Shown: positions 8,417 to 29,990 of the stretch, piece by piece
How positions within the stretch are numbered: position 1 is the stretch's first letter
Layout: each line of letters begins with the position of its first letter
Origin: Sphingomonas cavernae
GTDB taxonomy: Bacteria > Pseudomonadota > Alphaproteobacteria > Sphingomonadales > Sphingomonadaceae
NCBI RefSeq assembly: GCF_003590775.1
Contig: NZ_QYUM01000003.1
Span: 498,501 to 562,500 of the forward strand
DNA length: 64,000 nt
Reading direction: 5' to 3'
The notes under the pieces: model-generated
Told to the model about the DNA's origin: nothing
What the model saw: only the letters and a program-made list of their open reading frames with translations
Database searches by the model: none
Program-made: the position numbers and the translations under genes

Positions 8417-8795
8417 AGTGTCGATGCTCGCGCCGCAATTGATATCGGCCGGGCGCAAATCCATCGAACAGCCCCGAAATTGCAGGGTGATCGACGGGCT
8501 CGTCGCTGTCGTCGGCGACCAGATTCTGCTGGCTGACATAAGCGACGTAGCTGCTCTCCGCATTCTCGGCGAGCAAATGGTAAAAGGGCTGGTCGCGATG
8601 CGGCCGGATGTCTTCGGGAATCGCCTCGTACCATTCCTCGCTGTTGGCGAAGACCGGGTCGATGTCGAAGATTACCCCGCGAAACGCGAACATCCGGTGC
8701 TTCACCACATCGCCGATCGCGAAGCGTGCGTGCGAAACGGGGGGCATGGCGGCGGGAATCGTCGGGCAACCGGTCGAGATATCGGGATAGTTCAT
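8415..8795 (-). CDS. hspQ: Heat shock protein HspQ (YccV-like)
   Basis: A 126-residue protein with the HspQ/YccV hemimethylated-DNA-binding-type fold. Diagnostic segments are FAIGDVVKHRMFAFRGVIFDIDP near residue 25, then EEWYEAIPEDIRPHRDQPFYHLLAE and YVAYVSQQNLVAD. In E. coli HspQ is a specificity factor and substrate of Lon protease and is heat-induced. The first 20 residues before the domain vary in the family, and an internal start at residue 17 is possible. The gene stands alone, convergent with the upstream hydrolase. Confidence 0.92.
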   Translation of the reverse strand: MNYPDISTGCPTIPAAMPPVSHARFAIGDVVKHRMFAFRGVIFDIDPVFANSEEWYEAIPEDIRPHRDQPFYHLLAENAESSYVAYVSQQNLVADDSDEPVDHPAISGLFDGFAPGRYQLRREHRH

Positions 8796-8917
8796 ATAGC
8801 TTATTTAGGCGGGTTTTGCTTTCAAGCAAGCGGACCGCTTGCAGAGCGCGAAAGCCTGCGCTAATGGCCGCCCCTCAAACGACCGGACGGGCCGCTTTCC
8901 AAGCGCCGTTCATCAGC

Positions 8918-9007
<90 letters not shown>

Positions 9008-9109
9008 CGACTTCCTGGAATCCGCAGACTTCCTAGGATTGGCTGATTTCTGTCGCTTTTGATGCTGCTATGGCGGCTCGTTTCGTTTGAAATACACCGT
9101 GGCCTTCGC

Positions 9110-11728: not shown

Positions 11729-12802
11729 TCAGCCGCGCAGGACGAACAGCAACGATGCACACAAACTCATCAATGTGGCGGCGAGAACCGGCACAACGGC
11801 CCGCCATCCAAGCTCCATGAGGAGGTCCATTCGCGATCGCATGGCAGTGGCCGTGACGGCAACGAGCAGCAGCGCCTTGGACAGCGACAGCGCCAAGGCC
11901 CTTGCATCCCCAGGCATCGCGACGACGCTGTTGAACGCGACCACGCCCAAGAATGCGATGATGAACCACGGGATGCTGATGCGACGCCAGATCGGGCGCG
12001 CCTCGCGTTCGCCGCCAGATCCCAGCCACATCGATACCAAGAGAACTACCGGCGCTAGCAACGTCACCCGGGCCAACTTGACGATCGTGGCATGGCTGCC
12101 CGCCGCATCCGAGAAGCTATAGGCACCGCCGATGGCCTGAGCGACATCATGGACCGAAGCGCCGATCAAATAGCCGGCCTGCTGGTCGTTCAGGCCCATC
12201 TCGCCGGCAAGTGCCGGATAGAGTGACATCGCGAGGGCGCTCGCCAGCGACACGCCGACCAGCGTAAGCGCAAATTGCGCCTGGCTGAGCCTGTCCTTGC
12301 CGACCACGCCGTAAAGCGCAAGCGCTGCGCTCGCGCCGCAGATCGCGGTCGCGCCACCCGCCAATATGCCGGCGTAGCGCGACTGCCCCGAAATGCGCGC
12401 ACCCACCAGCCCCGCCGCAAAGGTCAGCGACATGATGAGCAGCAGGGCGATAAACGGCTGCACGCCGAGCGCTTCGATCTGGCCATAGCTGATCTGCAGG
12501 CCGAGCAATATGATGCCGATCCGCAGAAAGTTCCGCGATGCAAAATCGAGCCCGGCATGCGTTGCCGCGTCGCGCGTGACGAAATTGAGCGAAAGCCCGA
12601 TCAAAAGCCCAAGCAAGATGACGGGCATGCCATAATGATCGGAAAGCCATGCCGCGGCCCCTGAACCGACCGCGCAGATGGCGAGCCCCGGCAGCAAATT
12701 CCGCAAACGTGATGTTTCGCCGTGCTGGATCTTTTCGGCAAGGTACAGTTCGCCGAACAGGTCGCCGCTATAAGGCATCTCCGCCTGATCCGCACGTTTC
12801 AT
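11729..12802 (-). CDS. YeiH/CuyZ-type (UPF0324) putative sulfite/sulfate exporter
   Basis: A 357-residue inner-membrane protein with about ten hydrophobic segments. It carries the family motif AGGATAICGASAALA near residue 155 and YLIGASVHDVAQAIGGAYSF near 215. The UPF0324 family is annotated as putative sulfate exporter, and the related CuyZ is proposed to export sulfite during cysteate breakdown. Here it is divergent from an MFS permease and 4 kb from a sulfoquinovose desulfonation operon that would release sulfite. A TGTC...CGGTGTCA element shared with the operon promoter lies in the gap before it. A sulfite-export role is inferred from this context. Confidence 0.85.
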   Translation of the reverse strand: MKRADQAEMPYSGDLFGELYLAEKIQHGETSRLRNLLPGLAICAVGSGAAAWLSDHYGMPVILLGLLIGLSLNFVTRDAATHAGLDFASRNFLRIGIILLGLQISYGQIEALGVQPFIALLLIMSLTFAAGLVGARISGQSRYAGILAGGATAICGASAALALYGVVGKDRLSQAQFALTLVGVSLASALAMSLYPALAGEMGLNDQQAGYLIGASVHDVAQAIGGAYSFSDAAGSHATIVKLARVTLLAPVVLLVSMWLGSGGEREARPIWRRISIPWFIIAFLGVVAFNSVVAMPGDARALALSLSKALLLVAVTATAMRSRMDLLMELGWRAVVPVLAATLMSLCASLLFVLRG

Positions 12803-12820
12803 ATCGTCCCCGACGCCTTG

Positions 12821-12837
12821 TGTCCTACGGTGTCATA
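12821..12837. promoter_or_regulatory. Candidate LacI operator (site 1)
   Basis: TGTCCTACGGTGTCATA lies between the divergent exporter and MFS genes. It shares TGTC, CGGTGTCA and a following A with TGTCAAGCGGTGTCACA at 17069, which lies between the TonB receptor and the glycosidase genes. The conserved half CGGTGTCA resembles LacI/GalR half-sites with a central CG. The most likely binder is the LacI protein encoded at 19155. Confidence 0.4.
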
Positions 12838-12915
12838 TTCTGCTTCCCTTATCGTCGCGAAACGTTAGGTTGCAAGCCGAAACACGCCCGAAGGACGGAC
12901 AGGGGAGAAATTGGC

Positions 12916-14151
12916 ATGGCGACGGCCGCGGTTGGAGATGCGAGAACGAGCAGGATTTTCGTTGTCCTGGTCACCCTGCTTTTCTTGGGTAACGCGCTCA
13001 ACTATGTCGATCGCCAGGTGCTGGCTTTGCTCAAGCCGACGCTCGAAATCGAGTTTGGCTGGACCGACTCCGACTATGCCCATCTCGGCTCGACCTTCCA
13101 GATTGCTGCCGCTTTTGCGCTTCTGGGCGTTGGCTGGTTCGTCGATCGCCTGGGTGTCCGCCTGGCCTATGGCATCGCGATCGTCGTGTGGAGCGCAGCG
13201 GGCATGGCGCATGCGCTGGCCATGTCGGTCCAGCAATTCGTCGCGGCGCGCGTCGTGCTGGCGATCGGGGAATCGGTCAGCACGCCTGCCGGAATCAAGA
13301 CCGCCGCCACGTACCTGCCGCTGAAGCAACGCAATATGGCGATCGGGTTGATCAATACCGCGCCCAACATCGGTGCGATCATAACGCCGCTTCTCATCCC
13401 CCCCCTCGCGATCGCGTTCGGCTGGAAGGCCGCGTTCCTTCTCACCGGCGCGCTCGGCTTCATATGGCTGGCCTTCTGGCTCCCGGCGACGCGCAACCTC
13501 AAGCCGCTCGGCGATACGCCCGAACGCGCGCCGGTCAATTGGGGACCGCTGCTGCGCGATCGGCGGACCTGGGCAGTCGTCGGCGCGAAGGCTTTCACCG
13601 ATTGCGTCTGGTGGTTCGTCCTGTTTTGGATGCCCGATTTCTTCAGCCGTTCCTTCAACATGGGACAGGGTGAATTGGGATGGCCGATCGCGATCATCTT
13701 CACGCTGGCCGCACTCGGCGCGATCACGTCGGGCGCGCTATATCCCATCATGCTCAGCCGCGGCTATTCGGTCAACAAGGCACGAAAATCGTCGATGCTG
13801 CTATTCGCGCTGGCCGTGCTCGCGATGCCCTTGGCCCTTACGACCGCCAATCCCTGGCTGGCCGCGATGTTTATCGGGGTCGGTCTCTTCGCCCACCAGG
13901 GATTTTCCACGAATATTTTTGGCATGACTGCGGATATCATTCCGCCGTTGCGCGTCGCGACGGTCATCGCGTTCGGCGCCGTCGCCGGCAACCTCTCGGG
14001 GACCGCGATCATCGAGTTCGCCGGCTGGTCGCTCGGTAACGGCCTCGGTTATGGCCCGCTCTTCGCAATCTGCAGCGTTGCCTATCTTTGCGCGCTGGGC
14101 CTCGTTCACGTCATACTACCGCGGCTTCAGCTTTCCCACACCGATCAGTAA
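12916..14151 (+). CDS. MFS transporter, anion:cation symporter (ExuT-like) family
   Basis: About 411 residues with 12 predicted membrane helices, beginning MATAAVGDARTSRIFVVLVTLL. The segment NALNYVDRQVLALLKPTLEIEFGWTDSDYAHL and the following VDRLGVRLAYG loop are typical of the ACS/hexuronate (ExuT) branch, which carries sugar acids and other organic anions. An anionic sugar such as sulfoquinovose would fit. The ATG at 12916 follows AGGGGAG. The gene is divergent from the putative exporter and shares an operator-like element with the sulfoquinovose operon, so an inner-membrane sulfoquinovose or sulfoquinovosyl glycerol importer is my inference. Confidence 0.88.
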   Translation: MATAAVGDARTSRIFVVLVTLLFLGNALNYVDRQVLALLKPTLEIEFGWTDSDYAHLGSTFQIAAAFALLGVGWFVDRLGVRLAYGIAIVVWSAAGMAHALAMSVQQFVAARVVLAIGESVSTPAGIKTAATYLPLKQRNMAIGLINTAPNIGAIITPLLIPPLAIAFGWKAAFLLTGALGFIWLAFWLPATRNLKPLGDTPERAPVNWGPLLRDRRTWAVVGAKAFTDCVWWFVLFWMPDFFSRSFNMGQGELGWPIAIIFTLAALGAITSGALYPIMLSRGYSVNKARKSSMLLFALAVLAMPLALTTANPWLAAMFIGVGLFAHQGFSTNIFGMTADIIPPLRVATVIAFGAVAGNLSGTAIIEFAGWSLGNGLGYGPLFAICSVAYLCALGLVHVILPRLQLSHTDQ

Positions 14152-14300
14152 CTGCCGGGCGATTGCAGCGACGGACGATGCGTCCGTCACCGGTGCGTCC
14201 TGGTTCGTCAAACGAGTCCCACGGGCGGGAGCGTCTGGCTGAACTGAGAAGAGCTCGGGTGGCGCATTCATGCCGCCGTTACGACCAACTGACATCTAGG

Positions 14301-14430
14301 GTCGTTCCGGATTTGAATGAATCGTCATTGCGAGGGAGCGTACCGACGAAGCAATCCAGTGGGAGCCCGGCCTGTCGCCTCTTCGCTTTGCTGGCAATGA
14401 CGGGCCGCTTCAATGTAAATCGGAACGGCT
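14301..14430. repeat. Imperfect nested inverted repeat (REP-like)
   Basis: The outer arms are GTCGTTCCGGATTT (14301-14314) and AAATCGGAACGGC near 14418. Inside them CGTCATTGCGAG (14323) faces GGCAATGACG (14392), with a middle stretch resembling the CAATCCAG-type REP seen in many alphaproteobacteria. It fills much of the gene-free gap 14152-14573, and no protein-coding reading is convincing there. Confidence 0.6.
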
Positions 14431-14573
14431 CTACGCGTATTCGCCCGCTGCCAGATCCAAGCGCGACGACCTTGCGCTCGAAAGCAGAGGCATCGCCCGC
14501 TGGGCGCTGAGCCCGTCGCATTCCCTATTGTCCGGAGTGTGATCGTCATGGTTGTCGTGGGGGCATCAAATCA

Positions 14574-14606
14574 GAAAAAAAGCCCTCCTGCCATAGGCAG
14601 GAGGGC
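14574..14606 (-). terminator. Rho-independent terminator of the TonB receptor gene
   Basis: Read on the minus strand, GCCCTCCTGCC and GGCAGGAGGGC form a perfect 11-bp stem with a three-base loop, directly followed by a run of eight U. It stands 43 bases after the stop of the minus-strand receptor gene that ends at 14649. Confidence 0.92.
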
Positions 14607-14648
14607 CGAATTGCAAATGCCAGCGCCGGGGCGCCGGCGGAATATTGA

Positions 14649-16961
14649 TCACATCTTGGCGCGCAAGCTGACCCCGAAATAACGGTCCGCATCGCGCGGG
14701 ATCTGCAGGCGCTGAGCGTTCGACACGTTCAGCAGAATATAGCTTTCGTCGCTGATGTTGCGGACGTGGAAAGTCAGCCGGTACTGGTCTTCGGGGTCGG
14801 AAAAACCAAGCGACGCGTTCCATTGTCCATAGGCATCGATCGGGCCCGACTCTCCCAGATCCGAAAATTGCTTCGAGACATGGCGATAGTCGGTGCCGAG
14901 ATAGAGCATGACGCCGCCCAAGGACCGCTCATAATCGGCGCCAAGCGTGTAAGTGAACTTGGGCGCGAGCGGCAGGCGGGTGCCGTCGCGGGCGTCGGGT
15001 GCGTTGGTCAGCGGGTTGGGATTGAAACGCTTGACCTTGGCATCGGCATAGGCGGCGCTCGCACGCAATGTCAGCCCTTCGACCGGCACGGCGGTGAGGT
15101 CGACCTCGAACCCCTGGCTCTTGACCGTTCCTGCATTCGTCAGGTTAGTGACGACCGCGCCGTTAAGCAGCACGAAGTTGTTCGCCTGAAATCCGTCATA
15201 CTCGACGCTGAAACCAGCGAGATTGAGCTGGACCTTGTTGTCGAGGAAGCGCGACTTGAGACCGATTTCAAACGCGTCGGAAGTTTCCTCATCGATCGGC
15301 ACCGAATTGATCGGCGCGGTATGATTGAAGAAGACGTTAAACGCGGGGCCTTTGTAACCGCGGGTATAGCTGCCGTAGAGCATGAGATCTTCGGCCGGCG
15401 TGAACTGGAGGACCGCCTTGCCCGACAGATTGCCGTTGCTGCTCGACCCGCTCGAGATGTTGCGTCCCGTGCCCCCCGAAGCGATCGTTCCGCCCGCCGG
15501 GCTGCCCGAAATGCCGGGGCCGGTTGCGGGCAGGCCGGTGGCGGCATTGACGCCAGGCGCGCGGATATGGGTGTAGCTGAGTTCGTCCCATGTGTAGCGC
15601 AGGCCGCCGGTCACCGCGAACATGTCGTTGAGGCGGTAGGTGGCCTGACCGAATAGCGCATAGTTGGTCGAGTTGACGTCGCTATTCGAAGTCGCGGTCG
15701 GGAAGATGGTGTTTACCGTGTCATTGACATTGCAGGGCGTGCCGCCGGTCCGCGGATCGACGGGCAACGTCGACCGGGCGCATGTGATGTCGCGGCGCGT
15801 GAAGTCCTGCTTGTTGTCCGAATGCCAGACGAAGCCGCCGAACTGGTAGAAGAAGGGCAGGGCCTGGTCAGAGGCGATGCGGGCCTCGACCGAGAATTGC
15901 TGCGTCTTGACCACCCCATTGTCGTGGAGTTCCGGGGTGCCGACAATGGCGCGCGGTAGGAAGTCGCCTTCCCGAATTTCCTCGTTCTGCCAGTTGCGGT
16001 AACCCGCGACGACGCTCAGCGTATGGCTGTCCGAGAGCTCGAAATCGCCGCTGGCGGTGAGGCTCCATTGCTTGTCGCGCGTGCGGGTGACGAGGTTGTG
16101 ATTTACGAAGCGCTGGTCTTCTCCCAGCGCGACCCCGCTCGGAAGGCCGAGTTCGGCGTCGAGGACCGCGCCACGGCTCGCGCCGGTGACGTCGGCGCAG
16201 CAGTCGTCATCAGCCCTGAAATAATCGGCGATGAAGCGGAGCTGGGCGACCTCGCCGCGATAGTCGACAATGCCGCGCGTGCCCCAATGCTCATAGCCGT
16301 TGACCTTGCGATTGCGACCGCCGTTGATGTTGGTGATGTTGCCGTCATAGCTGCCGTAGAAGCCAGTCAGGCGGCCGCTCCAGTCCGTGCCCAACGGGCC
16401 CGCGACCGAAGCGCGCAGGCGATATTCGTCGCCCTCATACCACTCGGCCTTGCCCTCGGCCTCTAGTGTGTCTGAGCCACCCTTGGATACGATATTCACC
16501 AGGCCGGCAGATGCGTTTTTGCCGAAGAGCGTTCCCTGCGGTCCGCGGAGCACTTCGAGGCGTTCGGCGTCGACCAGATCCATGAACGCCTGGCCCGAAC
16601 GGCTGAGGACGATGCCGTCGACCACGGTCGATACGCTCGGCTCGGCGGCCACCGAGAAGGTGATGGTGCCGACGCCGCGCATCACGATCGCGCTGTTGGC
16701 GCTCGTAGTGCCCTTGCGGAAAGTCACCGAGGGAACGATGCGGGTGATGCCTTCCAGGCTGGTCGTTCCCGTCGTTTCGAGCCGGTCTGCCGATACCGCC
16801 GTAATTGCGATCGGCACCGACTGGACATTTTCCTCGACCTTCTGCGCGGTGACGGTGATCTCCTCGACCTCCTGCGCATAAGCGGAATTGGAAGCAATCA
16901 TCGCGATCGCGCTCGCCGTCATGGCCGCTGTGCGTGCGAAAGAATATCTGGAAGCATTCAT
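14649..16961 (-). CDS. TonB-dependent receptor, probable sulfoquinovoside uptake
   Basis: A 770-residue outer-membrane receptor. It has a signal peptide (MNASRYSFARTAAMTASAIAM...SAYAQ), a TonB-box region (EVEEITVTAQKVEENVQSVP), a plug with AERLEVLRGPQGTLFGKNASAG and a C-terminal barrel ending FGVSLRAKM. The start at 16961 follows GGGGAGGAAAT, so an upstream in-frame extension is rejected. It is divergent from the family 31 glycosidase, and the gap contains an operator-like element shared with the MFS/exporter promoter. Uptake of sulfoquinovosyl glycerol or a sulfolipid fragment is inferred from context. The sequence itself does not show the ligand. Confidence 0.92.
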   Translation of the reverse strand: MNASRYSFARTAAMTASAIAMIASNSAYAQEVEEITVTAQKVEENVQSVPIAITAVSADRLETTGTTSLEGITRIVPSVTFRKGTTSANSAIVMRGVGTITFSVAAEPSVSTVVDGIVLSRSGQAFMDLVDAERLEVLRGPQGTLFGKNASAGLVNIVSKGGSDTLEAEGKAEWYEGDEYRLRASVAGPLGTDWSGRLTGFYGSYDGNITNINGGRNRKVNGYEHWGTRGIVDYRGEVAQLRFIADYFRADDDCCADVTGASRGAVLDAELGLPSGVALGEDQRFVNHNLVTRTRDKQWSLTASGDFELSDSHTLSVVAGYRNWQNEEIREGDFLPRAIVGTPELHDNGVVKTQQFSVEARIASDQALPFFYQFGGFVWHSDNKQDFTRRDITCARSTLPVDPRTGGTPCNVNDTVNTIFPTATSNSDVNSTNYALFGQATYRLNDMFAVTGGLRYTWDELSYTHIRAPGVNAATGLPATGPGISGSPAGGTIASGGTGRNISSGSSSNGNLSGKAVLQFTPAEDLMLYGSYTRGYKGPAFNVFFNHTAPINSVPIDEETSDAFEIGLKSRFLDNKVQLNLAGFSVEYDGFQANNFVLLNGAVVTNLTNAGTVKSQGFEVDLTAVPVEGLTLRASAAYADAKVKRFNPNPLTNAPDARDGTRLPLAPKFTYTLGADYERSLGGVMLYLGTDYRHVSKQFSDLGESGPIDAYGQWNASLGFSDPEDQYRLTFHVRNISDESYILLNVSNAQRLQIPRDADRYFGVSLRAKM

Positions 16962-17068
16962 GGCTATTTCCTCCCCGTCCTGATCTTGGCCGTTTCCCGA
17001 TGCTTGTGAGCACATCGGCGTAAGATGGCTCCTCGTTTCGCGCTTGCATTGCCGAGGAGGGGCCGATA

Positions 17069-17085
17069 TGTCAAGCGGTGTCACA
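17069..17085. promoter_or_regulatory. Candidate LacI operator (site 2)
   Basis: TGTCAAGCGGTGTCACA lies in the 187-base gap between the divergent receptor gene (start 16961) and the glycosidase gene (start 17149). It reads on the other strand as TGACA-N5-TGACA within a wider match to site 1 at 12821. Both ends of the locus could therefore respond to the LacI protein encoded in the operon. Confidence 0.4.
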
Positions 17086-17148
17086 TTTACCCGGTGGCGG
17101 AGCCAACATGCGGGTGATCAAGCATAAGGGCGAGAGGATTTTTTAGCG

Positions 17149-19158
17149 GTGGAACTGCGCATTTTCGACGCAGAGGACGGATTTGACCTCCTGCTTCAAG
17201 GCCGCGTCGTCCTGCGTCATCGCGCGGATTGTCCTGCGGTGGTCATTGCGCGTGGTCAGCCCACCATCATCATGTATCGGGGCAATTTCAGCATCGATGA
17301 TCAGCCGTCGGACGCGATCTCGCCGACCGAGTGGCGCCTCGTCGATTCGCGGATCGAGCTCTGCGATGCCGGACAGGTCGCGGCGATTGTGCGGTTCGAA
17401 GGTTCCGCGCTCGAGATCAAGGCCGTCTGCGAGGGATATGATCGCATCATCACCTCTTTTCATGCAGAGCCGGGTGAGGCGATCTGGGGTGGCGGCGAGC
17501 AGATGAGCTACCTGATGCTGACGGGCCGCCGCTTTCCGATCTGGACGAGCGAGCCGGGCGTCGGCCGCGACAAGACAACCGAGCTGACGCGCATCATGGA
17601 CGCCGAGGGCATGGCCGGCGGCGACTATTGGAACAGCAATTATCCGCAGCCGACTTTCCTGACGTCGCGCTGGCTCGCGGTTCATCTCGACAGCGCAAGC
17701 TATAGCGTGCTCGATTTCACCGATCCGGCGGCGCACCGTGTCGAAGCCTGGGCTCGCGTTGCGCGTTTCGAAATTTTTGCCGCTGACGCTCCCGCCGGAC
17801 TGGTCTGCGACCTGTCGCGACGCTTCGGGCGCCAGCCGGCGCTGCCCGATTGGGCGATTGGCGGTGCGATCGTCGGCCTCAAGGCGGGCGCGACGAGCTT
17901 CGATCGGCTTGAGCGTTTTCTGTCGGCTGGCGCCGCCGTTTCGGCGATCTGGTGCGAGGACTGGGCCGGGGTGCGCGAGACGAGCTTCGGACGCCGCCTA
18001 TTCTGGGATTGGGCGTGTGGAGCGCGTAGTGACGAGCGCTATCCCGGCCTTCGCGACCGCATTGCGGAATTGGCGGCGCGCGACATTCGCTTTCTTGGCT
18101 ATGCCAATCCCTATCTTGCGGTAGATGGCGCGCTCTTCGCCGAGGCGCGCGAAGGCGGGCATTTCTGTCTGCGGCAGGACAATGACGACGTCTATCTCGT
18201 CGACTTCGGCGAGTTCGATTGCGGGGTTGTCGATTTTACGCGGCCTGAGACGCGAAACTGGTTTGCCGAGCGCATTCTGGGGCGCGAGATGCTCGATATC
18301 GGCATTGCCGGCTGGATGGCCGACTTCGGGGAATATCTGCCCACCGACGTGCGACTTTCGGATGGTTCGGACCCGATGGAAGCCCATAACCGCTGGCCCG
18401 TGCTATGGGCCGAAGTCAACGCGCAGGCCGTGGCGTCGCGCGGCAAGACGGGCGATGCGCTGTTTTTCATGCGCGCGGGGTTTTCGGGCGTTCAGGCGCA
18501 TTGCCCGCTGCTCTGGGCCGGCGATCAATGCGTGGATTTTACCCGGCACGACGGAATCGGCACGGTGATCACCGCCGCGCTGTCGGCCGGACTAGTCGGC
18601 AACGCCTATAGTCACTCCGATTGCGGCGGCTATACATCGCTGCACGGTCATGTCCGCAGCGAGGAACTGCTTCAGCGCTGGTGCGAGCTTGCTGCCTTCG
18701 CGCCGGTGATGCGCAGCCATGAGGGCAATCGGCCCGATGATAATCTGCAATATGATTCGACGACCGATCTGCTTTCCTGCTTCGCGCGCTGGTCACGCGT
18801 CCACGCGCATCTCGCTCCTTATGCGCGCCATCTTTGCGACGAGGCGCGGGCCAGCGGGCTTCCCGCACAGCGTCCGCTGTTTCTCCATTATCCCGGCGAA
18901 GCAGACCTCTTTACGGTGCAGGACCAGTTTCTCTACGGTGCCGATCTCTTGGTGGCGCCGGTCATCGAGCAGGGGGCAAGTGCACGCACGGTAATCCTTC
19001 CCGGAGAAGAGGCGTGGCGAAACTGCTGGACAGGCGAAGATTATGAGCCTGGCGTCCATCTCGTTCCCGCACCGATCGGCGCGCCACCAGTCTTCTACCG
19101 GCCATGCAGCGTCTTTGCGTCGCTCTTCGCCGGCATGGCGGAGGTGTTGGGGCAATGA
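17149..19158 (+). CDS. smoI: Sulfoquinovosidase (glycoside hydrolase family 31)
   Basis: A 669-residue cytoplasmic family 31 glycosidase that aligns along its length with E. coli YihQ: GGGEQ near residue 114, FPIWTSEPGVGRDK at 129, SFGRRLFWDW at 279. The nucleophile is Asp392 in GWMADFGEYLPTD and the acid/base is Asp459 in WAGDQ. Sulfonate recognition in this family uses a QQRW set (E. coli) or a KERW set (Agrobacterium). Here Lys245, Glu270, Arg283 and Trp286 give KERW. The enzyme should split sulfoquinovosyl glycerol into sulfoquinovose and glycerol. It is the first gene of an operon with LacI, reductase, monooxygenase, glpD, FMN reductase, a RibB-like gene and glpK, and its TGA overlaps the LacI start by 4 bases. 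The symbol follows the Agrobacterium smo naming. Confidence 0.93.
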   Translation: MELRIFDAEDGFDLLLQGRVVLRHRADCPAVVIARGQPTIIMYRGNFSIDDQPSDAISPTEWRLVDSRIELCDAGQVAAIVRFEGSALEIKAVCEGYDRIITSFHAEPGEAIWGGGEQMSYLMLTGRRFPIWTSEPGVGRDKTTELTRIMDAEGMAGGDYWNSNYPQPTFLTSRWLAVHLDSASYSVLDFTDPAAHRVEAWARVARFEIFAADAPAGLVCDLSRRFGRQPALPDWAIGGAIVGLKAGATSFDRLERFLSAGAAVSAIWCEDWAGVRETSFGRRLFWDWACGARSDERYPGLRDRIAELAARDIRFLGYANPYLAVDGALFAEAREGGHFCLRQDNDDVYLVDFGEFDCGVVDFTRPETRNWFAERILGREMLDIGIAGWMADFGEYLPTDVRLSDGSDPMEAHNRWPVLWAEVNAQAVASRGKTGDALFFMRAGFSGVQAHCPLLWAGDQCVDFTRHDGIGTVITAALSAGLVGNAYSHSDCGGYTSLHGHVRSEELLQRWCELAAFAPVMRSHEGNRPDDNLQYDSTTDLLSCFARWSRVHAHLAPYARHLCDEARASGLPAQRPLFLHYPGEADLFTVQDQFLYGADLLVAPVIEQGASARTVILPGEEAWRNCWTGEDYEPGVHLVPAPIGAPPVFYRPCSVFASLFAGMAEVLGQ

Positions 19159-20168
19159 GCGAGCGGGCCAGTATCCGGGATGTCGCATCGAAAGCGGGGG
19201 TCGCCGTGAAGACGGTCAGCCGCGTTCTCAATGGTCATCCTTATGTCAGCGCCGAAACGCGTTCGCGCATCGAGGCGGCGATGGCGGAACTGGAATTTCG
19301 GCCAAGTATAGCGGCGCGCATCCTCTCGGGCGCAAAGTCGAACCAGATCGCGCTCATCTACGACAATCACAGTCCCTATTACATGTTCCAGATCCAGAGC
19401 GGATGCTGGCAATTGTGCAAGGAACGTGGGATCCGCCTTCTCTCCCAACCGGTCGACGTCGCCGATCCGCGCGTTGGCGACCAGGTCCGCGAACTCGTTA
19501 CCGAGACGCATGTGGACGGGATCATCCTCTCCTCGCCGGTCACCGATTGCGCGTCGGTGCTGGACGCGCTGGAACATCTCGACGTGCCGTTTGTGCGCAT
19601 CTCGCCCGGCACCAATCATTCGCTCGCCAGCTCGGTCTTCATGGACGATGCGCAGGCGGCCGACGACATGACGTCCTATCTCATCAATGTCGGGCATCGC
19701 CGGATCGGCTTCATCAAGGGACATCCGAGCCACATGGCGTCGGACGATCGCCTGTTCGGCTATCGCCGCGCGCTCGATCGCGCCGGAATCCCATTCGAAC
19801 CGAAGATGGTGTGCGACGGCGAGTTTGATTTCGACAGCGGGGTGCGCGCGGGCCGCTGCCTGCTCGACCTCGATCAACCGCCGACTGCCATTTTTGCCGC
19901 GAATGACGACATGGCGGCGGGCGTGCTCGCCGTCGCCCATGACCGCGGAATCGATATTCCGGGCGAATTGTCGGTCGCGGGTTTCGACGACACGACCTTG
20001 TCGCGCACCGTCTGGCCGCCGCTGACCACGATCCATCAGCCCATGCTGGAACTCGCGCGGACGGCGACCGAAATCCTGATCGACGGCGGCGACATCACAC
20101 ACCTTCGCTTGCCCCATTCCCTCGCCGAGCGCGCATCGGTCGCGCCGCCAACCAGGAAAAATCAATGA
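19155..20168 (+). CDS. LacI-family transcriptional regulator
   Basis: About 337 residues. The N-terminal LacI helix-turn-helix is clear (ASIRDVASKAGVAVKTVSRVLNG), with the hinge helix region RPSIAARILSGAKSNQIALIYD. A periplasmic-binding-protein-like effector domain follows, including GFIKGHPSHMASDDRLFGYRRAL and FAANDDMAAGVLAVAHDRGI. The ATG at 19155 overlaps the glycosidase stop (ATGA). A local regulator that senses sulfoquinovose, its glycoside or an intermediate is likely, with operators at 12821 and 17069 as candidates. Confidence 0.93.
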   Translation: MSERASIRDVASKAGVAVKTVSRVLNGHPYVSAETRSRIEAAMAELEFRPSIAARILSGAKSNQIALIYDNHSPYYMFQIQSGCWQLCKERGIRLLSQPVDVADPRVGDQVRELVTETHVDGIILSSPVTDCASVLDALEHLDVPFVRISPGTNHSLASSVFMDDAQAADDMTSYLINVGHRRIGFIKGHPSHMASDDRLFGYRRALDRAGIPFEPKMVCDGEFDFDSGVRAGRCLLDLDQPPTAIFAANDDMAAGVLAVAHDRGIDIPGELSVAGFDDTTLSRTVWPPLTTIHQPMLELARTATEILIDGGDITHLRLPHSLAERASVAPPTRKNQ

Positions 20169-21079
20169 GCCTGTTGCCTGCACCACCCCAATCGCGTTCT
20201 CTTAAAGACAGCGGAATTTCCGTCTCACCCATAGCCTGGGGGATGTGGCGCTTTGCCGAAGGTGGCCGGACGACTGCCGAAGCAGCGACGCTCGTCCATG
20301 CCGCGCTCGATGCGGGCATAACGCTCCTTGATACCGCCGACATCTACGGTTTCGACGGAACGGGCGGTTTCGGGGATGCTGAATCGTTGCTCGGCGACGT
20401 GCTGACCTCGGAACCGTCGCTGCGCGATCGGATGGTCCTTGCGACCAAGGGCGGGATTCGTCCGCCGCTTCCCTACGACCAGAGCGCCGCCTATCTCGCC
20501 GAAGCGATCGACGCGTCACTGCGGCGCCTCAAGGTCGACCATGTTGACCTTTGGCAGGTGCATCGGCCCGATATTCTCGCGCATCCGCAGGAAGTGGCGC
20601 GCGCGCTCGACGATGCCGTTTCGGCGGGCAAGATCCGTGCCCTTGGAGTATCCAATTTCACGGTCGCCCAGACCGAGGCGTTGGACGGGTTTCTCGACAA
20701 CAAGCTTGTCGCCACCCAGCCGGAAATCAGCCCTTTGCGGATCGACTGCTTCGAGAATGGCGAGCTCGATAGCGCCATGGCGCTCGGCCTGGCTCCGCTC
20801 GCCTGGTCGCCGCTCGGCGGCGGGCGCCTTGCTGTCCCTGGAAACGCGCGCGAGAAGGCTGTCGCGGCGGCGCTCGACACGGTGGCGGAGGCGCAAGGCG
20901 TCTCGCGCCAAGTCGCGGCCTATAGCTGGCTGATGGCGCATCCGGCGGGGATCATCCCGATTGTCGGTTCGCAACGCGCTGAGCGTATTGTCGAGGCGGC
21001 GTCGGCGACCGGCATCCGATGGACGCGATCCGACTGGTACGCGGTGTTGGTCGCGGCCCGAGGGGAGGCCCTGCCATAG
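20165..21079 (+). CDS. smoB: Aldo-keto reductase, candidate 6-oxo-glucose reductase
   Basis: A 304-residue cytoplasmic NAD(P)H aldo-keto reductase. The tetrad segments are visible: LLDTADIYGFDG (Asp and Tyr), LATKGGIRPP (Lys) and WQVHRPDILAHP (His). The phosphate-binding end is IPIVGSQRAERI. In the sulfoquinovose monooxygenase pathway SmoB reduces 6-dehydroglucose, left after desulfonation, to glucose. This gene lies directly before the monooxygenase gene and overlaps the LacI stop by 4 bases, which supports the same job. Other sugar or aldehyde substrates cannot be excluded from sequence. Confidence 0.85.
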   Translation: MSLLPAPPQSRSLKDSGISVSPIAWGMWRFAEGGRTTAEAATLVHAALDAGITLLDTADIYGFDGTGGFGDAESLLGDVLTSEPSLRDRMVLATKGGIRPPLPYDQSAAYLAEAIDASLRRLKVDHVDLWQVHRPDILAHPQEVARALDDAVSAGKIRALGVSNFTVAQTEALDGFLDNKLVATQPEISPLRIDCFENGELDSAMALGLAPLAWSPLGGGRLAVPGNAREKAVAAALDTVAEAQGVSRQVAAYSWLMAHPAGIIPIVGSQRAERIVEAASATGIRWTRSDWYAVLVAARGEALP

Positions 21080-21179
21080 CCGGCCGATCATGGACCGCCC
21101 GCCGCGCGGGCTGATTTGCCGTGTCGAGCGCGGCCCGCCTCCCGCAAGGAGCGGGAAGGAGCCAATGGAGAGGAAATTC

Positions 21180-22268
21180 ATGACCGGACAACAATGCGAA
21201 ATCGCCTGGTTCTCGGCGCTGTGCGACGATGACTATGAGTTTCTCGGGGTTTCGGATCCCTATCTGCGATCGAGCTGGGACCATTGCCGGAATATCGTGA
21301 TGCGCGCCGAAGAGGGCGGCTTCGATAATATCCTGCTTCCCTCGGGCTATCAGCTCGGCCTCGATACGACCGCCTTCGCGGCGGCCGTCGCGACGCAGGT
21401 TCGACGGATCAAGCTGCTCTGGGCCACGCGGATCGGCGAAGACTGGCCTCCGCAGCTCGCGCGCCGCATTGCGACGCTCGACCGGATCCTTGGGCCGAAT
21501 ACGGCCGGCACGGGAGGGCGGCTCAACGTGAACATCATCTCGTCCGACATGCCGGGCGAACAACTCGCGGGCGGGCCGCGCTACGCCCGCGCCACCGAGG
21601 TGATGAAGATATTGCGCACGCTGCTCAACGGCGAGCATCTCGACCATGATGGCGAATTCTACAAGCTCAAGCTCGACCCGCCGCGCATCACGACGCTGTC
21701 GGGCAAATGCCCGCCCTTCTATTTTGGCGGTCTGAGCCATGAGGCGCGCGAATGCGCGGCCGAAGGCTGCGATGTCTATCTGATGTGGCCCGACACGATG
21801 GACAAGGTGCGCGAGACGATCGCCGACATGAAGCAACGCGCCGCGCGTTTCGGCCGCACGCTCAAATTCGGCTATCGCGTCCATGTCATAGTTCGCGAAA
21901 CGGAAGAGGAAGCGAGGCTTTATGCCGACCGCTTGCTGTCCAAGCTCGATGAAGCGACCGGCGCCGCGATCCGCGAAAAATCGCTCGATGCCAAGAATTA
22001 CGGGGTCCAGCGCCAAGCCGAACTGCGCGGAGCCGCCGACGGCGACGGTTTCGTGGAGGACAATCTGTGGACGGGCATCGGGCGCGCGCGGTCGGGCTGC
22101 GGCGCAGCGATCGTTGGAACGCCGGACCAGGTTCTCGCCAAGCTGCGCGCCTATCAGGACGAGGGCATCGAGGCCTTCATCCTCTCGGGCTATCCGCATG
22201 CGCAGGAAGCCGATCTCTTCGCCCGGCACGTTCTGCCGCACATCGCGCATGGTCCGCTTGAAGGCTGA
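21180..22268 (+). CDS. smoC: FMNH2-dependent sulfoquinovose monooxygenase (SsuD-like)
   Basis: About 362 residues of the bacterial luciferase-like flavin monooxygenase family. It aligns with the alkanesulfonate monooxygenase SsuD: AEEGGFDNILLPSGY, ATRIGEDWPPQLARRIATLDRI, GGRLNVNIISSDMPGEQLAG, FGYRVHVIVRETEEEA and IEAFILSGYPHAQEADLF. SmoC in Agrobacterium cleaves the C-S bond of sulfoquinovose to give 6-dehydroglucose and sulfite. The operon partners, a sulfoquinovosidase and an FMN reductase, support this over a general SsuD. The start at 21180 follows GGAGAGG with good spacing, and the ATG at 21165 is an alternative five codons upstream. Confidence 0.87.
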   Translation: MTGQQCEIAWFSALCDDDYEFLGVSDPYLRSSWDHCRNIVMRAEEGGFDNILLPSGYQLGLDTTAFAAAVATQVRRIKLLWATRIGEDWPPQLARRIATLDRILGPNTAGTGGRLNVNIISSDMPGEQLAGGPRYARATEVMKILRTLLNGEHLDHDGEFYKLKLDPPRITTLSGKCPPFYFGGLSHEARECAAEGCDVYLMWPDTMDKVRETIADMKQRAARFGRTLKFGYRVHVIVRETEEEARLYADRLLSKLDEATGAAIREKSLDAKNYGVQRQAELRGAADGDGFVEDNLWTGIGRARSGCGAAIVGTPDQVLAKLRAYQDEGIEAFILSGYPHAQEADLFARHVLPHIAHGPLEG

Positions 22269-22283
22269 GGGCGGAGCTAGCGC

Positions 22284-23771
22284 GTGACGGCTGACCTGTT
22301 CGACATCGCCATCGTTGGAGGGGGGGTGAATGGCTGCGGCATCGCGCGCGATGCCGCGGGCCGCGGCGCGCGCGTGCTTCTCCTGGAAGCGGATGACCTG
22401 GCCAGCGGCACCTCGTCGGCATCGACCAAGCTGATCCATGGCGGACTGCGCTACCTCGAACATTATGAATTTGCGCTCGTCCGTGAATCGCTGTCGGAAC
22501 GCGAGCGCCTTTGGGCGATCGCGCCGCACATCGTGCGGCCGATGCGCTTCGTTCTTCCTCATGTCGCGGGCTTGCGGCCGCGTTGGCTCCTGCGGCTCGG
22601 CCTGTTTCTCTACGACCATATTGGCGGCCGCAAGCGCCTGCCGCCCGCGGAGTCGCTCGCTCTCGCGCACCATCCGGCGGGCGCCCCGCTCAAGCCGGAA
22701 TTCGGCCACGGCTTTGCCTATTCCGACTGTTGGGTCGACGATGCCCGCTTGGTGATCCTCAATGCGCGCGACGCGGCCGACCGGGGTGCATTGGTCCTCA
22801 CGCGCTGCCGGGTCGAGAGTTTCGTGCGCGCGCAGGACCATTGGGACATCGGGACGACGCGCGGCCGGTTCCGCGCGCGCGCCATCGTCAATGCCGCCGG
22901 ACCCGCGGTGCTCGACGTCGCCGGGCTTGCCGGCCAAACCGCGACGCGGCGCGTGCGTCTCGTGCGTGGTTCGCACATCATCGTGCCGCGCCTTTTCGAT
23001 CATGATTTCTCCTATTTTTTCCAACTGCCCGACGGACGCATCTTCTTCGCGATCCCCTATGAGGGCGAATTTACGCTGATCGGGACGACCGACCGCGATC
23101 ATGCAGCTAGCCTCGCTGACGTCCGGGCGAGTGAAGAGGAAATCGCGTATCTGTGCGAAGGCGCGAACCGCTTTTTCCGGAAATCGGTGACGCCGGCCGA
23201 TGTCGTTTGGACATATTCGGGGGTGCGACCGCTCATCGACGATGGCTCCGGCCGCCCCGAAGCCGCGACGCGAGGTTACCATCTGAGCCTGTCTGAGCGA
23301 TCGGCCGGAGCGCCGCTGCTTTCGATTTTTGGCGGGAAGATCACGACCTATCGCCGTCTCGCCGAGGAAGTGATCGATCTTCTCGCGCCGCGCGTGCCGG
23401 CGCTGGGGAAGCGGCGCTGGACCGGCGATGCGCCCTTGCCGGGTGGCAACTTTCCTCTTGGCGGTTTCTACGATCAGGTAGCGCGGCTTGTTCAGCGCTA
23501 TCCGTTCCTTGAGCCGGGGTGGGCGACCCGCCTCGTTCGCAGCTACGGGACCTTGGCCGACACCATCCTCGACGGAGCGCGGAGCCTCGAAGATTGCGGT
23601 CGTCATTTCGGACAAGGGCTGACCGAACGCGAAGTGCGCTATCTCGTTGAGCGCGAGTGGTGTCGAAGTGCCGACGACTTGCTCTGGCGGCGCAGCAAGC
23701 TCGGACTGCACATTGCGGCAGCCGAAGCGCAGGCCCTGTCCGAATATCTCGATGAAAAGGAACATGCGTGA
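22284..23771 (+). CDS. glpD: FAD-dependent glycerol-3-phosphate dehydrogenase
   Basis: A 495-residue respiratory-type enzyme that oxidises glycerol 3-phosphate to dihydroxyacetone phosphate at the inner membrane. The N-terminal FAD motif DIAIVGGGVNGCGIARDAAGRG is followed by LLEADDLASGTSSASTKLIHGGLRYLE, and later TYSGVRPLIDD and SIFGGKITTYRRLAEE. It begins at a GTG 15 bases after the monooxygenase stop. In this operon it would process glycerol freed by the sulfoquinovosidase, with the glpK kinase three genes downstream. Confidence 0.94.
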   Translation: MTADLFDIAIVGGGVNGCGIARDAAGRGARVLLLEADDLASGTSSASTKLIHGGLRYLEHYEFALVRESLSERERLWAIAPHIVRPMRFVLPHVAGLRPRWLLRLGLFLYDHIGGRKRLPPAESLALAHHPAGAPLKPEFGHGFAYSDCWVDDARLVILNARDAADRGALVLTRCRVESFVRAQDHWDIGTTRGRFRARAIVNAAGPAVLDVAGLAGQTATRRVRLVRGSHIIVPRLFDHDFSYFFQLPDGRIFFAIPYEGEFTLIGTTDRDHAASLADVRASEEEIAYLCEGANRFFRKSVTPADVVWTYSGVRPLIDDGSGRPEAATRGYHLSLSERSAGAPLLSIFGGKITTYRRLAEEVIDLLAPRVPALGKRRWTGDAPLPGGNFPLGGFYDQVARLVQRYPFLEPGWATRLVRSYGTLADTILDGARSLEDCGRHFGQGLTEREVRYLVEREWCRSADDLLWRRSKLGLHIAAAEAQALSEYLDEKEHA

Positions 23772-24343
23772 CCATCAATATCGTCGCCATTGGCGGAACA
23801 GTGTCACCGGCAAGCACGACCGAACAGGCGCTCCGACTCGCAGCGGCGCGCGCCGAAGCGCAGGGCGCGCAGGTTGTTGTTTTCGGCGGCACTTATCTCG
23901 GCGCCTTGCCGCATTATCGCGGCGACCTGCACGGTCCCGATAACGGTGCCGATCTGGTCGAGGCGGTGCGGGCAGCCGACGGCGTGCTGATTGCAGCGCC
24001 GGGCTATCACGGTTCGATCTCCGGGCTGGTCAAGAATGCGCTCGATTATCTCGAGGATCTTGCCGATGACGGTCGCCCCTATCTGGATGGACGCGCCGTC
24101 GGGTTGATCGCAACCGCTTATGGCGATCAGGCGACGATGAGCACCATGCAGACGCTTCGCAGCATTGTCCACGCGCTACGCGGCTGGCCGACCCCGATGG
24201 GAGCGACGATCCGGACCTATCGCGGGCTCTTCTCGTCTGACGGCGAGTGCCTCGAAGACAGGGCGCGCCTGCAGCTCGAGATCGTCGCCGACCAGTTGGT
24301 CAGGGGAGCTCGAAGCTTCGCAGGGCTGAGGACGGTCGCTTGA
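23768..24343 (+). CDS. NAD(P)H-dependent FMN reductase
   Basis: A 191-residue flavodoxin-fold reductase of the SsuE/NADPH-FMN reductase family. The FMN phosphate loop is IGGTVSPASTTEQALRLA, and APGYHGSISGLVKNALDYLEDL is the diagnostic second motif. It would supply FMNH2 to the two-component monooxygenase encoded upstream, the role SmoA has in Agrobacterium. I did not verify that it belongs to the same reductase family as SmoA, so I give no symbol. The GTG start overlaps the glpD stop (GTGA). Confidence 0.9.
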   Translation: MTINIVAIGGTVSPASTTEQALRLAAARAEAQGAQVVVFGGTYLGALPHYRGDLHGPDNGADLVEAVRAADGVLIAAPGYHGSISGLVKNALDYLEDLADDGRPYLDGRAVGLIATAYGDQATMSTMQTLRSIVHALRGWPTPMGATIRTYRGLFSSDGECLEDRARLQLEIVADQLVRGARSFAGLRTVA

Positions 24344-24939
24344 TGTCGGGCCTCGACGATGCCATCGCCGCGCTTGCCGCAGGCAAAGTGATCATCATTA
24401 CCGGCGATCGGCTGCGCGGCGGCGATATCGATTTCGCGATCGCGGCGCGACACGTCACGATGGAGGCGATCAACTTCATGGCCAGCCATGGCCGCGGTCT
24501 CATCTGTCTTGCGATGGGGCCCGATCGGGCGGTTCGGCTTGGGATCGGGTTATTGAACCCGGGGGCGGAGCGCCAGTCGGGGCGTCCTTTCGGCCGTTCG
24601 ATCGAAGCGCGGCGCGGCGTTACAACCGGAATTTCCGCTGCCGATCGGGCAGAGACGGTGCGCGTCGCGGCCTCACCCCAGGCAGCCGGTGACGACCTGG
24701 TGTCGCCCGGACATGTCTTTCCCCTGATTGCCGCTCGGGGAGGCATAGTCGATCGTCCCGCGGCGGCGGAAGCGGCGATCGAATTGTGCCGTCTCGCCGA
24801 TGCGGGCGACATGGCGGTGATCTGCTCGATCATGCGCGATGACGGGGAAATGGCTCGTATCGATGATCTCGACGCACTGATCCGGCGGGAGAATATGGCG
24901 GTCGCCGACATTGGCGACATGCTTGAACGCGCGCGTTGA
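24343..24939 (+). CDS. RibB-like protein lacking active-site residues
   Basis: A 198-residue homologue of 3,4-dihydroxy-2-butanone-4-phosphate synthase (RibB). The fold-defining segments are clear: GRGLICLAMGPDR, RRGVTTGISAADRAETVRVAA, SPGHVFPL and RDDGEMARIDDL. The catalytic DRENEGD motif is replaced by DRLRGGD, so E. coli Glu38 and Glu40 correspond to Leu24 and Gly26. The metal-ligand His153 of RGGHTEA is Ala141 in RPAAAEA, and catalytic Glu174 is Ser162. It should not make the riboflavin precursor by the known mechanism. The start overlaps the FMN reductase stop by one base (TGATG). Its place beside flavin-dependent genes hints at a flavin-related or new role, unknown at present. Confidence 0.85.
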   Translation: MSGLDDAIAALAAGKVIIITGDRLRGGDIDFAIAARHVTMEAINFMASHGRGLICLAMGPDRAVRLGIGLLNPGAERQSGRPFGRSIEARRGVTTGISAADRAETVRVAASPQAAGDDLVSPGHVFPLIAARGGIVDRPAAAEAAIELCRLADAGDMAVICSIMRDDGEMARIDDLDALIRRENMAVADIGDMLERAR

Positions 24940-24994
24940 ACGACGGGCAGCGGCGTCCGCGGGAAATATGGAATTGGCTGGGAAGGAAACGGGC

Positions 24995-26473
24995 ATGCGC
25001 GAGCAGTTCATCCTCGTGCTCGACGAAGGCACGACCTCGACGCGGGCCATGATCTTTGCGCCCGACGGCGCGATCGTTGGCAAATGTCAGGCCGAGCTCA
25101 CCCAATATTACCCCGCGCCGGGTTGGGTAGAGCATGACGCAATCGAAATCCGCGACCGGACCATCGCATGCGCACGGCAAATGATCGAGCGGGCAGGCGG
25201 CGCTGACCGGATCGCGGCGATCGGGATCGCCAACCAGCGTGAAACCATCGTCGCGTGGGATCGAAGCACCGGCCAGCCGGTCAGCCGCGCGATCGTCTGG
25301 CAGGACCGCCGCACGGCCGCGCGCTGCGACGCCTTGCGCGACGCCGGTCACGAGCCGCTTGTGTCGCGGCGAAGCGGACTCGTTCTCGACCCCTATTTCT
25401 CGGCCACGAAGATCTCCTGGATCCTCGACAATGTTCCTGAAGCGCGCGCTCTCGGCGATCGTCTTGCGGTCGGCACTGTCGAAAGCTGGCTCCTATGGAG
25501 CCTCACGGGCGGGCTTCACGCCAGCGATGCCAGCAATGCCAGCCGGACGATGCTTATGGACATTGCGAAGGGGCAATGGGACGATGAATTGCTGGCGCTC
25601 CACGATGTGCCGCGTTTGGCGCTTCCCGAAATTGTCGATTGTGCTGGGAATTTCGGCGTTACGTCGCCCGAACTGTTCGGGTCGCCGATCCGGATTTGCG
25701 GACTTGTTGGCGATCAGCAGGCGGCGGCGATCGGACAGTCATGTCTTGCGCCAGGACAAGTGAAAGCGACGCTGGGGACGGGCGCCTTCATATTGTGCAA
25801 CACCGGCGCGCAGCCTGTAGCAAGTGGTCATCGCCTGCTCGGTACGGTGCTCTTTCAGCTCGATGGCGAGCGGAGCTATGCTCTCGAGGGATCGATCTTC
25901 GTGGCCGGCAGCGTGGTTCAGTGGCTGCGCGACAGGCTGGGGATCATCGCGAGCGCCGCCGAAACCGAGACCCTCGCGCGATCGGTTCGCGATAGCGGTG
26001 GGGTGATGATAATTCCCGCCTTGTCGGGTCTTGGCGCGCCCCACTGGCGACCCGACGCCCGCGCGATCGTTGCTGGGTTGAGCCATGGATCGGGCCGCGC
26101 CGAAATCGTGCGCGCTGCGCTTGAGTCGATCGCGCACCAGTTGAGCGACCTGCAGCGGGCTTATGCGGGTGACGGATGTGTGTGGCAATCGTTGCGGATC
26201 GACGGCGGGATGAGCGCCAATAACTGGATCGCGCAGGATATTGCCGACATGCTCGATGTGACGGTACAGCGACCCGATAATGTCGAGACGACCGCGCTCG
26301 GAGCTGCAATGCTGGCCGCAATGGGCTGCGGCCTTATGAGTTCGCTTGACGAGGCGGCTTCGATGCAGCGCAGCGCCGCGTCCTTCACTCCCGGTATGGA
26401 GAATAATGTCCGAAAGGCGCGGATGGATGGTTGGCGAAGTTTAATGGCAGTCCATGCGGCATCGTCGTCATGA
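24995..26473 (+). CDS. glpK: Glycerol kinase
   Basis: About 492 residues of the FGGY kinase family. Typical GlpK segments are LVLDEGTTSTRAMIFAPDG at the N-terminus, IGIANQRETIVAWDRSTGQP, AIVWQDRRTA, GLVGDQQAAAIGQ and VKATLGTGAFILCNTG. It phosphorylates glycerol with ATP to glycerol 3-phosphate, the substrate of GlpD. The ATG at 24995 follows GGAAGG at good distance, and an in-frame ATG at 24968 is less likely. It is the last gene of the sulfoquinovose operon, 55 bases after the RibB-like gene, and no GlpF facilitator is present nearby. Confidence 0.94.
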   Translation: MREQFILVLDEGTTSTRAMIFAPDGAIVGKCQAELTQYYPAPGWVEHDAIEIRDRTIACARQMIERAGGADRIAAIGIANQRETIVAWDRSTGQPVSRAIVWQDRRTAARCDALRDAGHEPLVSRRSGLVLDPYFSATKISWILDNVPEARALGDRLAVGTVESWLLWSLTGGLHASDASNASRTMLMDIAKGQWDDELLALHDVPRLALPEIVDCAGNFGVTSPELFGSPIRICGLVGDQQAAAIGQSCLAPGQVKATLGTGAFILCNTGAQPVASGHRLLGTVLFQLDGERSYALEGSIFVAGSVVQWLRDRLGIIASAAETETLARSVRDSGGVMIIPALSGLGAPHWRPDARAIVAGLSHGSGRAEIVRAALESIAHQLSDLQRAYAGDGCVWQSLRIDGGMSANNWIAQDIADMLDVTVQRPDNVETTALGAAMLAAMGCGLMSSLDEAASMQRSAASFTPGMENNVRKARMDGWRSLMAVHAASSS

Positions 26474-29927: not shown

Positions 29928-29990
29928 TGATATTCCTCCCCCAAGGAATGCGTGCCTGTTTTCCCCGCATCCCCACGCAGAGTTGCAAAG

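Follow-up and report, generated by a model that had tools for sequence, protein, structure and literature searches.

Sulfoquinovose (SQ) is a sulfur sugar of plants and algae. It ranks with the most abundant of all organosulfur compounds (PMC12890257). Its breakdown by sulfo-SMO and sulfo-ASMO chemistry is known in Agrobacterium and Novosphingobium aromaticivorans (PMC9594981, PMC12890257). In isotope probing Novosphingobium was among the main SQ assimilators, the pathway was predicted in related genomes, and sphingomonads appear as active SQ assimilators in nature (PMC13372026). Here we study a gene cluster at positions 11729-26473 of a 64,000-nucleotide stretch of Sphingomonas cavernae (NZ_QYUM01000003.1, positions 498,501 to 562,500; hereafter the window, in whose numbering positions are given), for which an initial annotation had proposed complete SQ utilisation. 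We find it highly probable that the cluster forms an aerobic sulfo-SMO unit for sulfoquinovosyl glycerol (SQGro) and SQ, with a glycerol arm, control by a LacI-family regulator and a RibB-like protein that probably no longer works as a 3,4-dihydroxy-2-butanone 4-phosphate (DHBP) synthase.

Gene content and predicted pathway

Open reading frame (ORF) calls and family profile matches place eleven intact genes in the cluster:

11729-12802, minus strand: YeiH-type PF03601 membrane protein, candidate sulfite/sulfate exporter (Pfam 183.8 bits)
12916-14151, plus strand: major facilitator superfamily (MFS) permease (MFS_1; best NCBIfam model a D-galactonate transporter subfamily, 156 bits, cut-off 395)
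14649-16961, minus strand: TonB-dependent receptor (PF00593 and PF07715; signal-peptide-like N-terminus by eye)
17149-19158, plus strand: GH31 sulfoquinovosidase (SQase; 5ohy_A 803.8 bits, residues 8-661)
19155-20168, plus strand: LacI-family regulator (PF00356, PF13377)
20165-21079, plus strand: aldo-keto reductase (AKR), SquF/SmoB-like (best solved chain 7bbz_A, 186.7 bits)
21165-22268, plus strand: SquD/SmoC-like luciferase-family monooxygenase, SsuD-like (SquD; 7olf 366 bits, 7oh2 352 bits)
22284-23771, plus strand: glycerol-3-phosphate dehydrogenase GlpD (NF009906, 740.6 bits)
23768-24343, plus strand: NAD(P)H:flavin mononucleotide (FMN) reductase (FMN_red; PF03358, 93 bits)
24343-24939, plus strand: RibB-like protein with the DHBP-synthase fold (PF00926, 197 bits)
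24995-26473, plus strand: glycerol kinase GlpK (TIGR01311, 595.4 bits, cut-off 590.35)

The YeiH-type gene is transcribed leftward, the MFS gene rightward and the TonB receptor leftward, and from SQase to GlpK all genes run rightward in an operon-like order. The receptor start was placed at 16961, inward of the original 17084. All genes listed in the initial annotation are intact ORFs with the expected family match, but its list passed over GlpD, the RibB-like gene and GlpK, which lie within the same interval and are its most distinctive genes, the RibB-like one above all. The coupled starts that it had described are present, in overlaps of 1-4 bases: ATGA at SQase/LacI and LacI/AKR, GTGA at GlpD/FMN_red and TGATG at FMN_red/RibB-like.

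In the proposed mechanism, the TonB receptor and the MFS permease would take up SQGro, which a cytoplasmic SQase would then split into SQ and glycerol. The FMN reductase would supply FMNH2 to SquD, which would use O2 to break the C-S bond and so yield sulfite and 6-dehydroglucose; the AKR would convert the latter to glucose, and the YeiH protein would export sulfite or sulfate. GlpK and GlpD would take the glycerol to dihydroxyacetone phosphate (DHAP), and the LacI regulator would repress the divergent operons through the element TGTCNNGCGGTGTCA. The RibB-like protein would work in SQ catabolism next to the flavin reductase; it would be a partner that binds flavin or phosphate, or else an enzyme that acts on one of the pathway intermediates.

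The comparison with known proteins that had been proposed gives 5ohy, 7olf/7oh2 and 7bbz as the best solved matches of SQase, SquD and the AKR, which we take to be the Agrobacterium SQase, SmoC and SmoB. The glycosidase motif is borne out as well. In the alignment with 5ohy/5ohs all listed positions are conserved: K245, E270, R283, W286, Y491 and D455 (positions counted by eye; D455 is N in 5ohs), together with the Asp within GWMADFGEYLP. These are presumably sulfonate-binding or catalytic residues, with the catalytic Asp pair among them; a search for the motif by name in the open-licence literature gave no match. By eye the SQase shows no signal peptide, and we infer a cytoplasmic location.

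SquD is the only match of its kind in the 4.24 Mb genome. Its next-best solved chains are 7jv3 (207 bits) and 1nqk/1m41 (176 bits), the latter two presumably E. coli SsuD, and it reaches 245 bits with TIGR03565, under the cut-off of 518. The AKR gene adjoins SquD and thus lies within the 10-ORF window around SmoC used for SmoB/SquF reductases in PMC13372026. The flavin reductase is above the PF03358 cut-off, and the genome has four further PF03358 proteins. A genome-wide search for sulfite oxidation found one PF00174 protein.

At a cut-off of E <= 1e-60, SquD is present in 78 of 298 genomes of the family, the window's included. Among named genomes the nearest relative is in Sphingopyxis jiangsuensis (94%). 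Four other members of the genus were sampled; in three of them SquD is 73-75% identical, and in one it is absent at this cut-off. A genome of a different genus (G122) has a SquD that is 92% identical. This suggests that the cluster is exchanged horizontally. The plasmid relatives listed comprise 29 records.

For synteny we used two sets of loci. Eighty named loci are the best 80 of 200 relatives from a scan of named genomes; they were chosen as the closest SquD matches, and their 10 kb flanks cut some clusters. The 76 family regions come from the 77 other genomes with SquD except G007, whose gene is in pieces. The order SQase-LacI-AKR-SquD is found in 74 of the 80 named loci and in 29 of the 76 family regions, and a divergent TonB receptor precedes it in 68 and 29 of them, respectively. 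As this order recurs, a chance assembly of genes is excluded.

Further, 63 of the 76 regions were at least 14 kb long and held SquD; the other 13 were dropped. In these 63 regions homologues (tblastn, E <= 1e-10) are found of AKR in 60, SQase in 33, YeiH in 31, GlpD in 23, FMN_red in 22, the RibB-like protein in 20 and GlpK in 11, while the counts for the TonB receptor (57), MFS (50) and LacI (42) may include paralogues.

SquD and its reductase might instead act on simple alkanesulfonates or on another sulfosugar, so that the locus would not be for SQ at all. The 30 of 63 SquD regions in which SQase was undetected fit this, as the SquD homologues there may use other substrates. However, SquD is nearer to 7olf/7oh2 than to 7jv3 or 1nqk/1m41, and it stands in an operon-like run with a sulfoquinovosidase. 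We regard this alternative as very improbable.

Some observations weigh against the assignment to SQ as a whole or against single steps of it. SQase is undetected in 30 of the 63 regions and the RibB-like protein in 43, therefore neither is needed by SquD. FMN_red is distant from SsuE (34 bits with the SsuE model, cut-off 164). Uptake of SQGro presupposes substrates of the TonB receptor and of the permease that are predicted. The YeiH protein reaches the PF03601 cut-off but only 131 bits with TIGR00698, whose curated cut-off is 232.6, and its putative role as a sulfite/sulfate exporter is the weakest assignment.

Taken together, gene content, closest solved relatives, synteny and an operator-like element all fit the SQ pathway that had been proposed; the core pathway is, however, not new for the group, as it has already been described for Novosphingobium. 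No ABC importer for SQGro was found by family profiles among the eleven genes, in line with the earlier reading that a TonB receptor and an MFS protein stand in its place. Oxidative desulfonation of SQ with TonB/MFS uptake is thus supported as the predicted function of the locus.

A few loci differ from this pattern. In regions without SQase (e.g. L233, L235, L241), SquD may serve free SQ or another substrate. In Novosphingobium sp. EMRT-2 (L032, 4825-15092), SquD and AKR (92 and 78%) lie near a diverged SQase (53%), and the neighbours are a long-chain fatty-acid-CoA ligase and a phytanoyl-CoA dioxygenase family protein; such a setting could reflect use of sulfolipid acyl chains. On a plasmid of Spirosoma oryzicola (Bacteroidota; L035, 9962-18244), sigma/FecR and SusC/SusD-type genes come after a SquD homologue of 47% identity. 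On a short contig of a Porphyrobacter metagenome-assembled genome (L073), LacI-AKR-SquD is found as an inverted duplicate, perhaps an assembly artefact. In the window itself a second TonB receptor lies near the cluster end (27513-30032), and an ORF at 8726-9046 has the translation AERSKAPHSKCGVP...PWVRIPPSPP, which resembles that of a tRNA gene read through as coding sequence.

The RibB-like protein

The RibB-like protein passes the Pfam cut-off for DHBP synthases, therefore a name based on family would hide the loss of its active site. With TIGR00506 it reaches 163 bits, under the cut-off of 177, and a canonical RibBA (287 bits with PF00926) is found on another contig of the same genome. We compared 41 distinct cluster copies (46 rows) with 36 distinct canonical domains, in E. 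coli numbering. In the cluster copies H153 is replaced in 41/41, E174 in 41/41, E38 in 40/41 and T154 in 38/41, whereas the canonical domains retain H153 in 35/36, E174 in 36/36 and E38 in 36/36. The window copy has Gly at position 38 and Ala at position 153, and so lacks the metal ligands expected of a DHBP synthase.

Other pocket positions are kept in the cluster copies: R37, C67, H136, R150 and E155 in 41/41 and D42 in 40/41. In a solved complex (PMC12268802) the Mg ions are coordinated on the protein side by H150 and E35, R34 and R147 bind the phosphono group, and contacts to the inhibitor come from H133 and D39; these residues correspond to E. coli positions by an offset of 3, assigned in this analysis. 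In addition, R81 and P82 are new invariant positions, with Arg81 in all 41 cluster copies vs Thr93 in all 36 canonical domains. As the metal site is lost and the anion-binding pocket is kept, the protein probably does not function as a DHBP synthase.

The predicted structure retains the fold. An AlphaFold2 model has a pLDDT of 89, and in Foldseek it matches DHBP synthases; 46 of the 47 matches at E <= 0.001 have a query TM of 0.83-0.89 (3h07: 0.88). In a tree the 46 cluster rows fall on one side of a branch with support 100/99, apart from the sphingomonad RibBA; the tree is rooted at its midpoint and carries a warning that long branches meet. A recent duplication of the genome's own RibBA is therefore not supported. 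The tree label "variant" (EDREN absent) also catches canonical rows and needs seven changes rather than one, so it is no test of a clade.

The occurrence of the gene is narrow. A search profile built from 15 cluster copies splits the 298 family genomes into 23 at 256-347 bits and all others at no more than 227 bits. All 23 are among the 78 SquD-positive genomes (0 of the 220 SquD-negative). The gene lies about 3 kb or less downstream of SquD in 16 of them and about 7-11 kb away in 6; in one genome (G116) it is on a different contig, which is the region retrieved for this genome and lacks SquD. In the class (385 genomes) the top score apart from the window's is 233 bits. Among 398 genomes of the phylum the protein is found in three family genomes, the window's included, and the best match outside the family is a 421-residue frame with 235 bits. 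No copy without SquD was found in the family, class and phylum genomes searched.

Further, the gene keeps a constant neighbour. It is present in 23 of the 80 named loci, always beside FMN_red (23/23), and in the family regions holding both genes they are adjacent in 22 of 22, with a gap of 0-77 bases (table [[20,2],[0,41]]). The closest plasmid copies among the matches listed are in two Novosphingobium humi records (59.6%, about 11 kb from their SquD), the remaining ones listed being at 48.6% or less. FMN_red itself is found more widely: its close clade (at least 304 bits) occurs in 27 of the 298 family genomes, 4 of which have neither SquD nor the RibB-like protein, and we therefore rejected it as an SQ-only protein. 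In three of these four (L267, L268, L269) GlpD stands directly before FMN_red, and L269 also has a YeiH gene.

The position beside an FMN reductase and a luciferase-family monooxygenase would also suit a working RibB. In Photobacterium, luxG is immediately followed by rib genes, which are transcribed together with lux, and in V. campbellii ribB alone was found (PMC6409340). Further, the diverged copy in locus L207 (13080-13718) retains a Glu38 that is real, with Thr153 and Ala174, and the L067 copy has Asp at position 38; both weigh against the loss of synthase function, while the L189 row is unreliable at its N-terminus. As no copy retains H153 or E174, L207 does not alter our estimate, and with a canonical RibBA elsewhere in the genome we consider a working DHBP synthase unlikely. 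The residue table likewise speaks against an extra supply of FMN through such an enzyme. L207, L067, L215 and L219 form the most distant RibB-like subgroup, which may show the order in which the residues were lost.

The loss of catalytic residues could also mean a decaying paralogue without function, and in some pairs the ratio of nonsynonymous to synonymous substitution rates (dN/dS) is as high as 0.54. Over 764 pairs the median is 0.25, with synonymous sites near saturation in most. In contrast, dN/dS is 0.04-0.15 for nine of the twelve lowest-dS pairs; the other three, at 0.29-0.48, count against constraint. The pocket residues that are invariant across the 46 rows, and Arg81 in every cluster copy where canonical domains have Thr93, also speak against decay, which we find improbable.

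We conclude that the RibB-like protein is maintained and has an anion-binding pocket; the metal site of DHBP synthase is missing from nearly all copies. Judged from its sequence and setting, it most likely serves SQ catabolism. A more specific reading is that a metal-less DHBP-synthase fold was recruited, in the genomes searched only within sphingomonad SQ clusters, to a new role in oxidative sulfosugar catabolism, with R81 compensating for the lost metal site; examples of such a role are binding of a sulfonated or phosphorylated sugar or delivery of flavin. Here we see the case as evenly balanced.

Glycerol genes and the operator-like element

GlpD and GlpK are predicted to give the glycerol of SQGro a route to DHAP. 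In the 63 regions, 22 of the 23 with GlpD also have SQase (table [[22,11],[1,29]], Fisher p 6e-8). Some points weigh against a dedicated glycerol arm. The association tests ignore phylogeny, so that their p-values are too small, and for GlpK the association with SQase is not significant ([[8,25],[3,27]], p 0.19). GlpD may also serve general glycerol use, as it is the only strong GlpD in the genome: it is the sole match above the cut-off of NF009906, a narrow model whose cut-off is reached in 1 of 14 control genomes, and three weak partial matches elsewhere have 32 bits or less. A second copy of GlpK is found elsewhere in the genome. In the open-licence literature (titles and abstract starts), nothing was found on SQ with glycerol kinase, GlpD, TonB or a monooxygenase plus riboflavin in sphingomonads.

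Two operator-like elements, with no strand assigned, lie in the divergent intergenic regions of the cluster:

12821-12835: operator-like element TGTCCTACGGTGTCA, between the divergent YeiH and MFS genes, one mismatch to TGTCNNGCGGTGTCA
17069-17083: operator-like element TGTCAAGCGGTGTCA, between TonB receptor and SQase

The element was found through shared 8-mers, the commonest of which is present in 94 of 107 upstream regions; simple palindrome scoring found no palindromic operator in the TonB receptor/SQase region. A search of the 4.24 Mb genome for TGTCAAGCGGTGTCA, allowing one mismatch, gives the copy at 17069-17083 and no other, and the reversed control gives 0. At three mismatches the window has 3 sites vs 1.49 expected, which is not unusual; therefore the case for the element rests on the whole-genome search and on the comparison across loci. 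One element-like match, at 28745 inside the second TonB receptor, is probably due to chance.

For the comparison across loci we used 157 sequences (2.89 Mb), i.e. the window, the 80 named loci and the 76 family regions, some of them from the same organisms. At one mismatch or less TGTCNNGCGGTGTCA has 189 sites, vs 2 for the reversed pattern: 100 between TonB receptor and SQase, 78 between YeiH and MFS, 4 directly before GlpD, 1 at LacI and 6 elsewhere, so that 182 of 189 are at the first three places. These counts describe conservation and are no independent test, since the pattern was derived from the same loci.

The four GlpD sites are in L067, L192, L215 and L219. L067 and L192 code for the same RibB-like protein and seem to be one genome, in which GlpD follows SquD, while in L215 and L219 the glycerol cassette is apart from SquD. 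GlpD is away from SquD in 33 loci, and only in L215 and L219 is there a site (at most two mismatches) within 350 bases before it; of the other 31, 30 have the YeiH/MFS site, the common arrangement being GlpD after YeiH on the same strand. With the element before GlpD or at YeiH/MFS, the cassette is therefore tied to the SQ regulon.

Two further points count against the proposed regulation. The looser pattern TGTCNNGCGGTGTCA was written after seeing the sites and counted in the loci of its origin, and that the LacI protein binds the element we infer from position only. Its best solved chain is 1zvv (glucose-resistance amylase regulator, 165 bits), and it has no close solved relative.

Comparison with known systems

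The Eubacterium rectale sulfo-SFT cluster also has a glycerol kinase, which may use the glycerol of SQGro (PMC11968277), but its sulfoglycolytic chemistry and its phylum are different, and the part of that paper available names neither GlpD nor a RibB-like gene. Canonical RibB shares with the RibB-like protein the fold and the phosphate-binding arginines, but the latter has lost H153 and E174 in all copies and E38 in nearly all, and occurs only with SquD in the genomes searched. It is a conserved new component of the SQ cluster whose role is predicted only.

The smo locus of Agrobacterium tumefaciens resembles the window locus in its GH31 SQase, SQ monooxygenase and 6-dehydroglucose reductase (PMC9594981) and in its flavin reductase SmoA (PMC13372026), FMN_red being judged here by family only. 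It differs in having an ABC importer for SQGro, where the window locus has a TonB receptor and an MFS permease. Further smo genes are presumably alike too, and to our knowledge GlpD, GlpK and the RibB-like protein are absent from smo.

The SquD/SquF cluster of N. aromaticivorans is from related bacteria and has the same core enzymes; in the account of PMC9594981 it is without an SsuE-type reductase, whereas the window has FMN_red and the RibB-like protein. Plasmid pLA3 of Novosphingobium pentaromativorans US6-1 (L031) has the same order of TonB receptor, SQase, LacI, AKR, SquD, GlpD and GlpK, but FMN_red and the RibB-like protein were not detected there and the MFS gene is further away. The locus suggests how sphingomonads may exploit both parts of SQGro under the control of a single operator. 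In comparison with these systems it is probably a sphingomonad variant of sulfo-SMO with a glycerol arm and a repurposed RibB-like protein.

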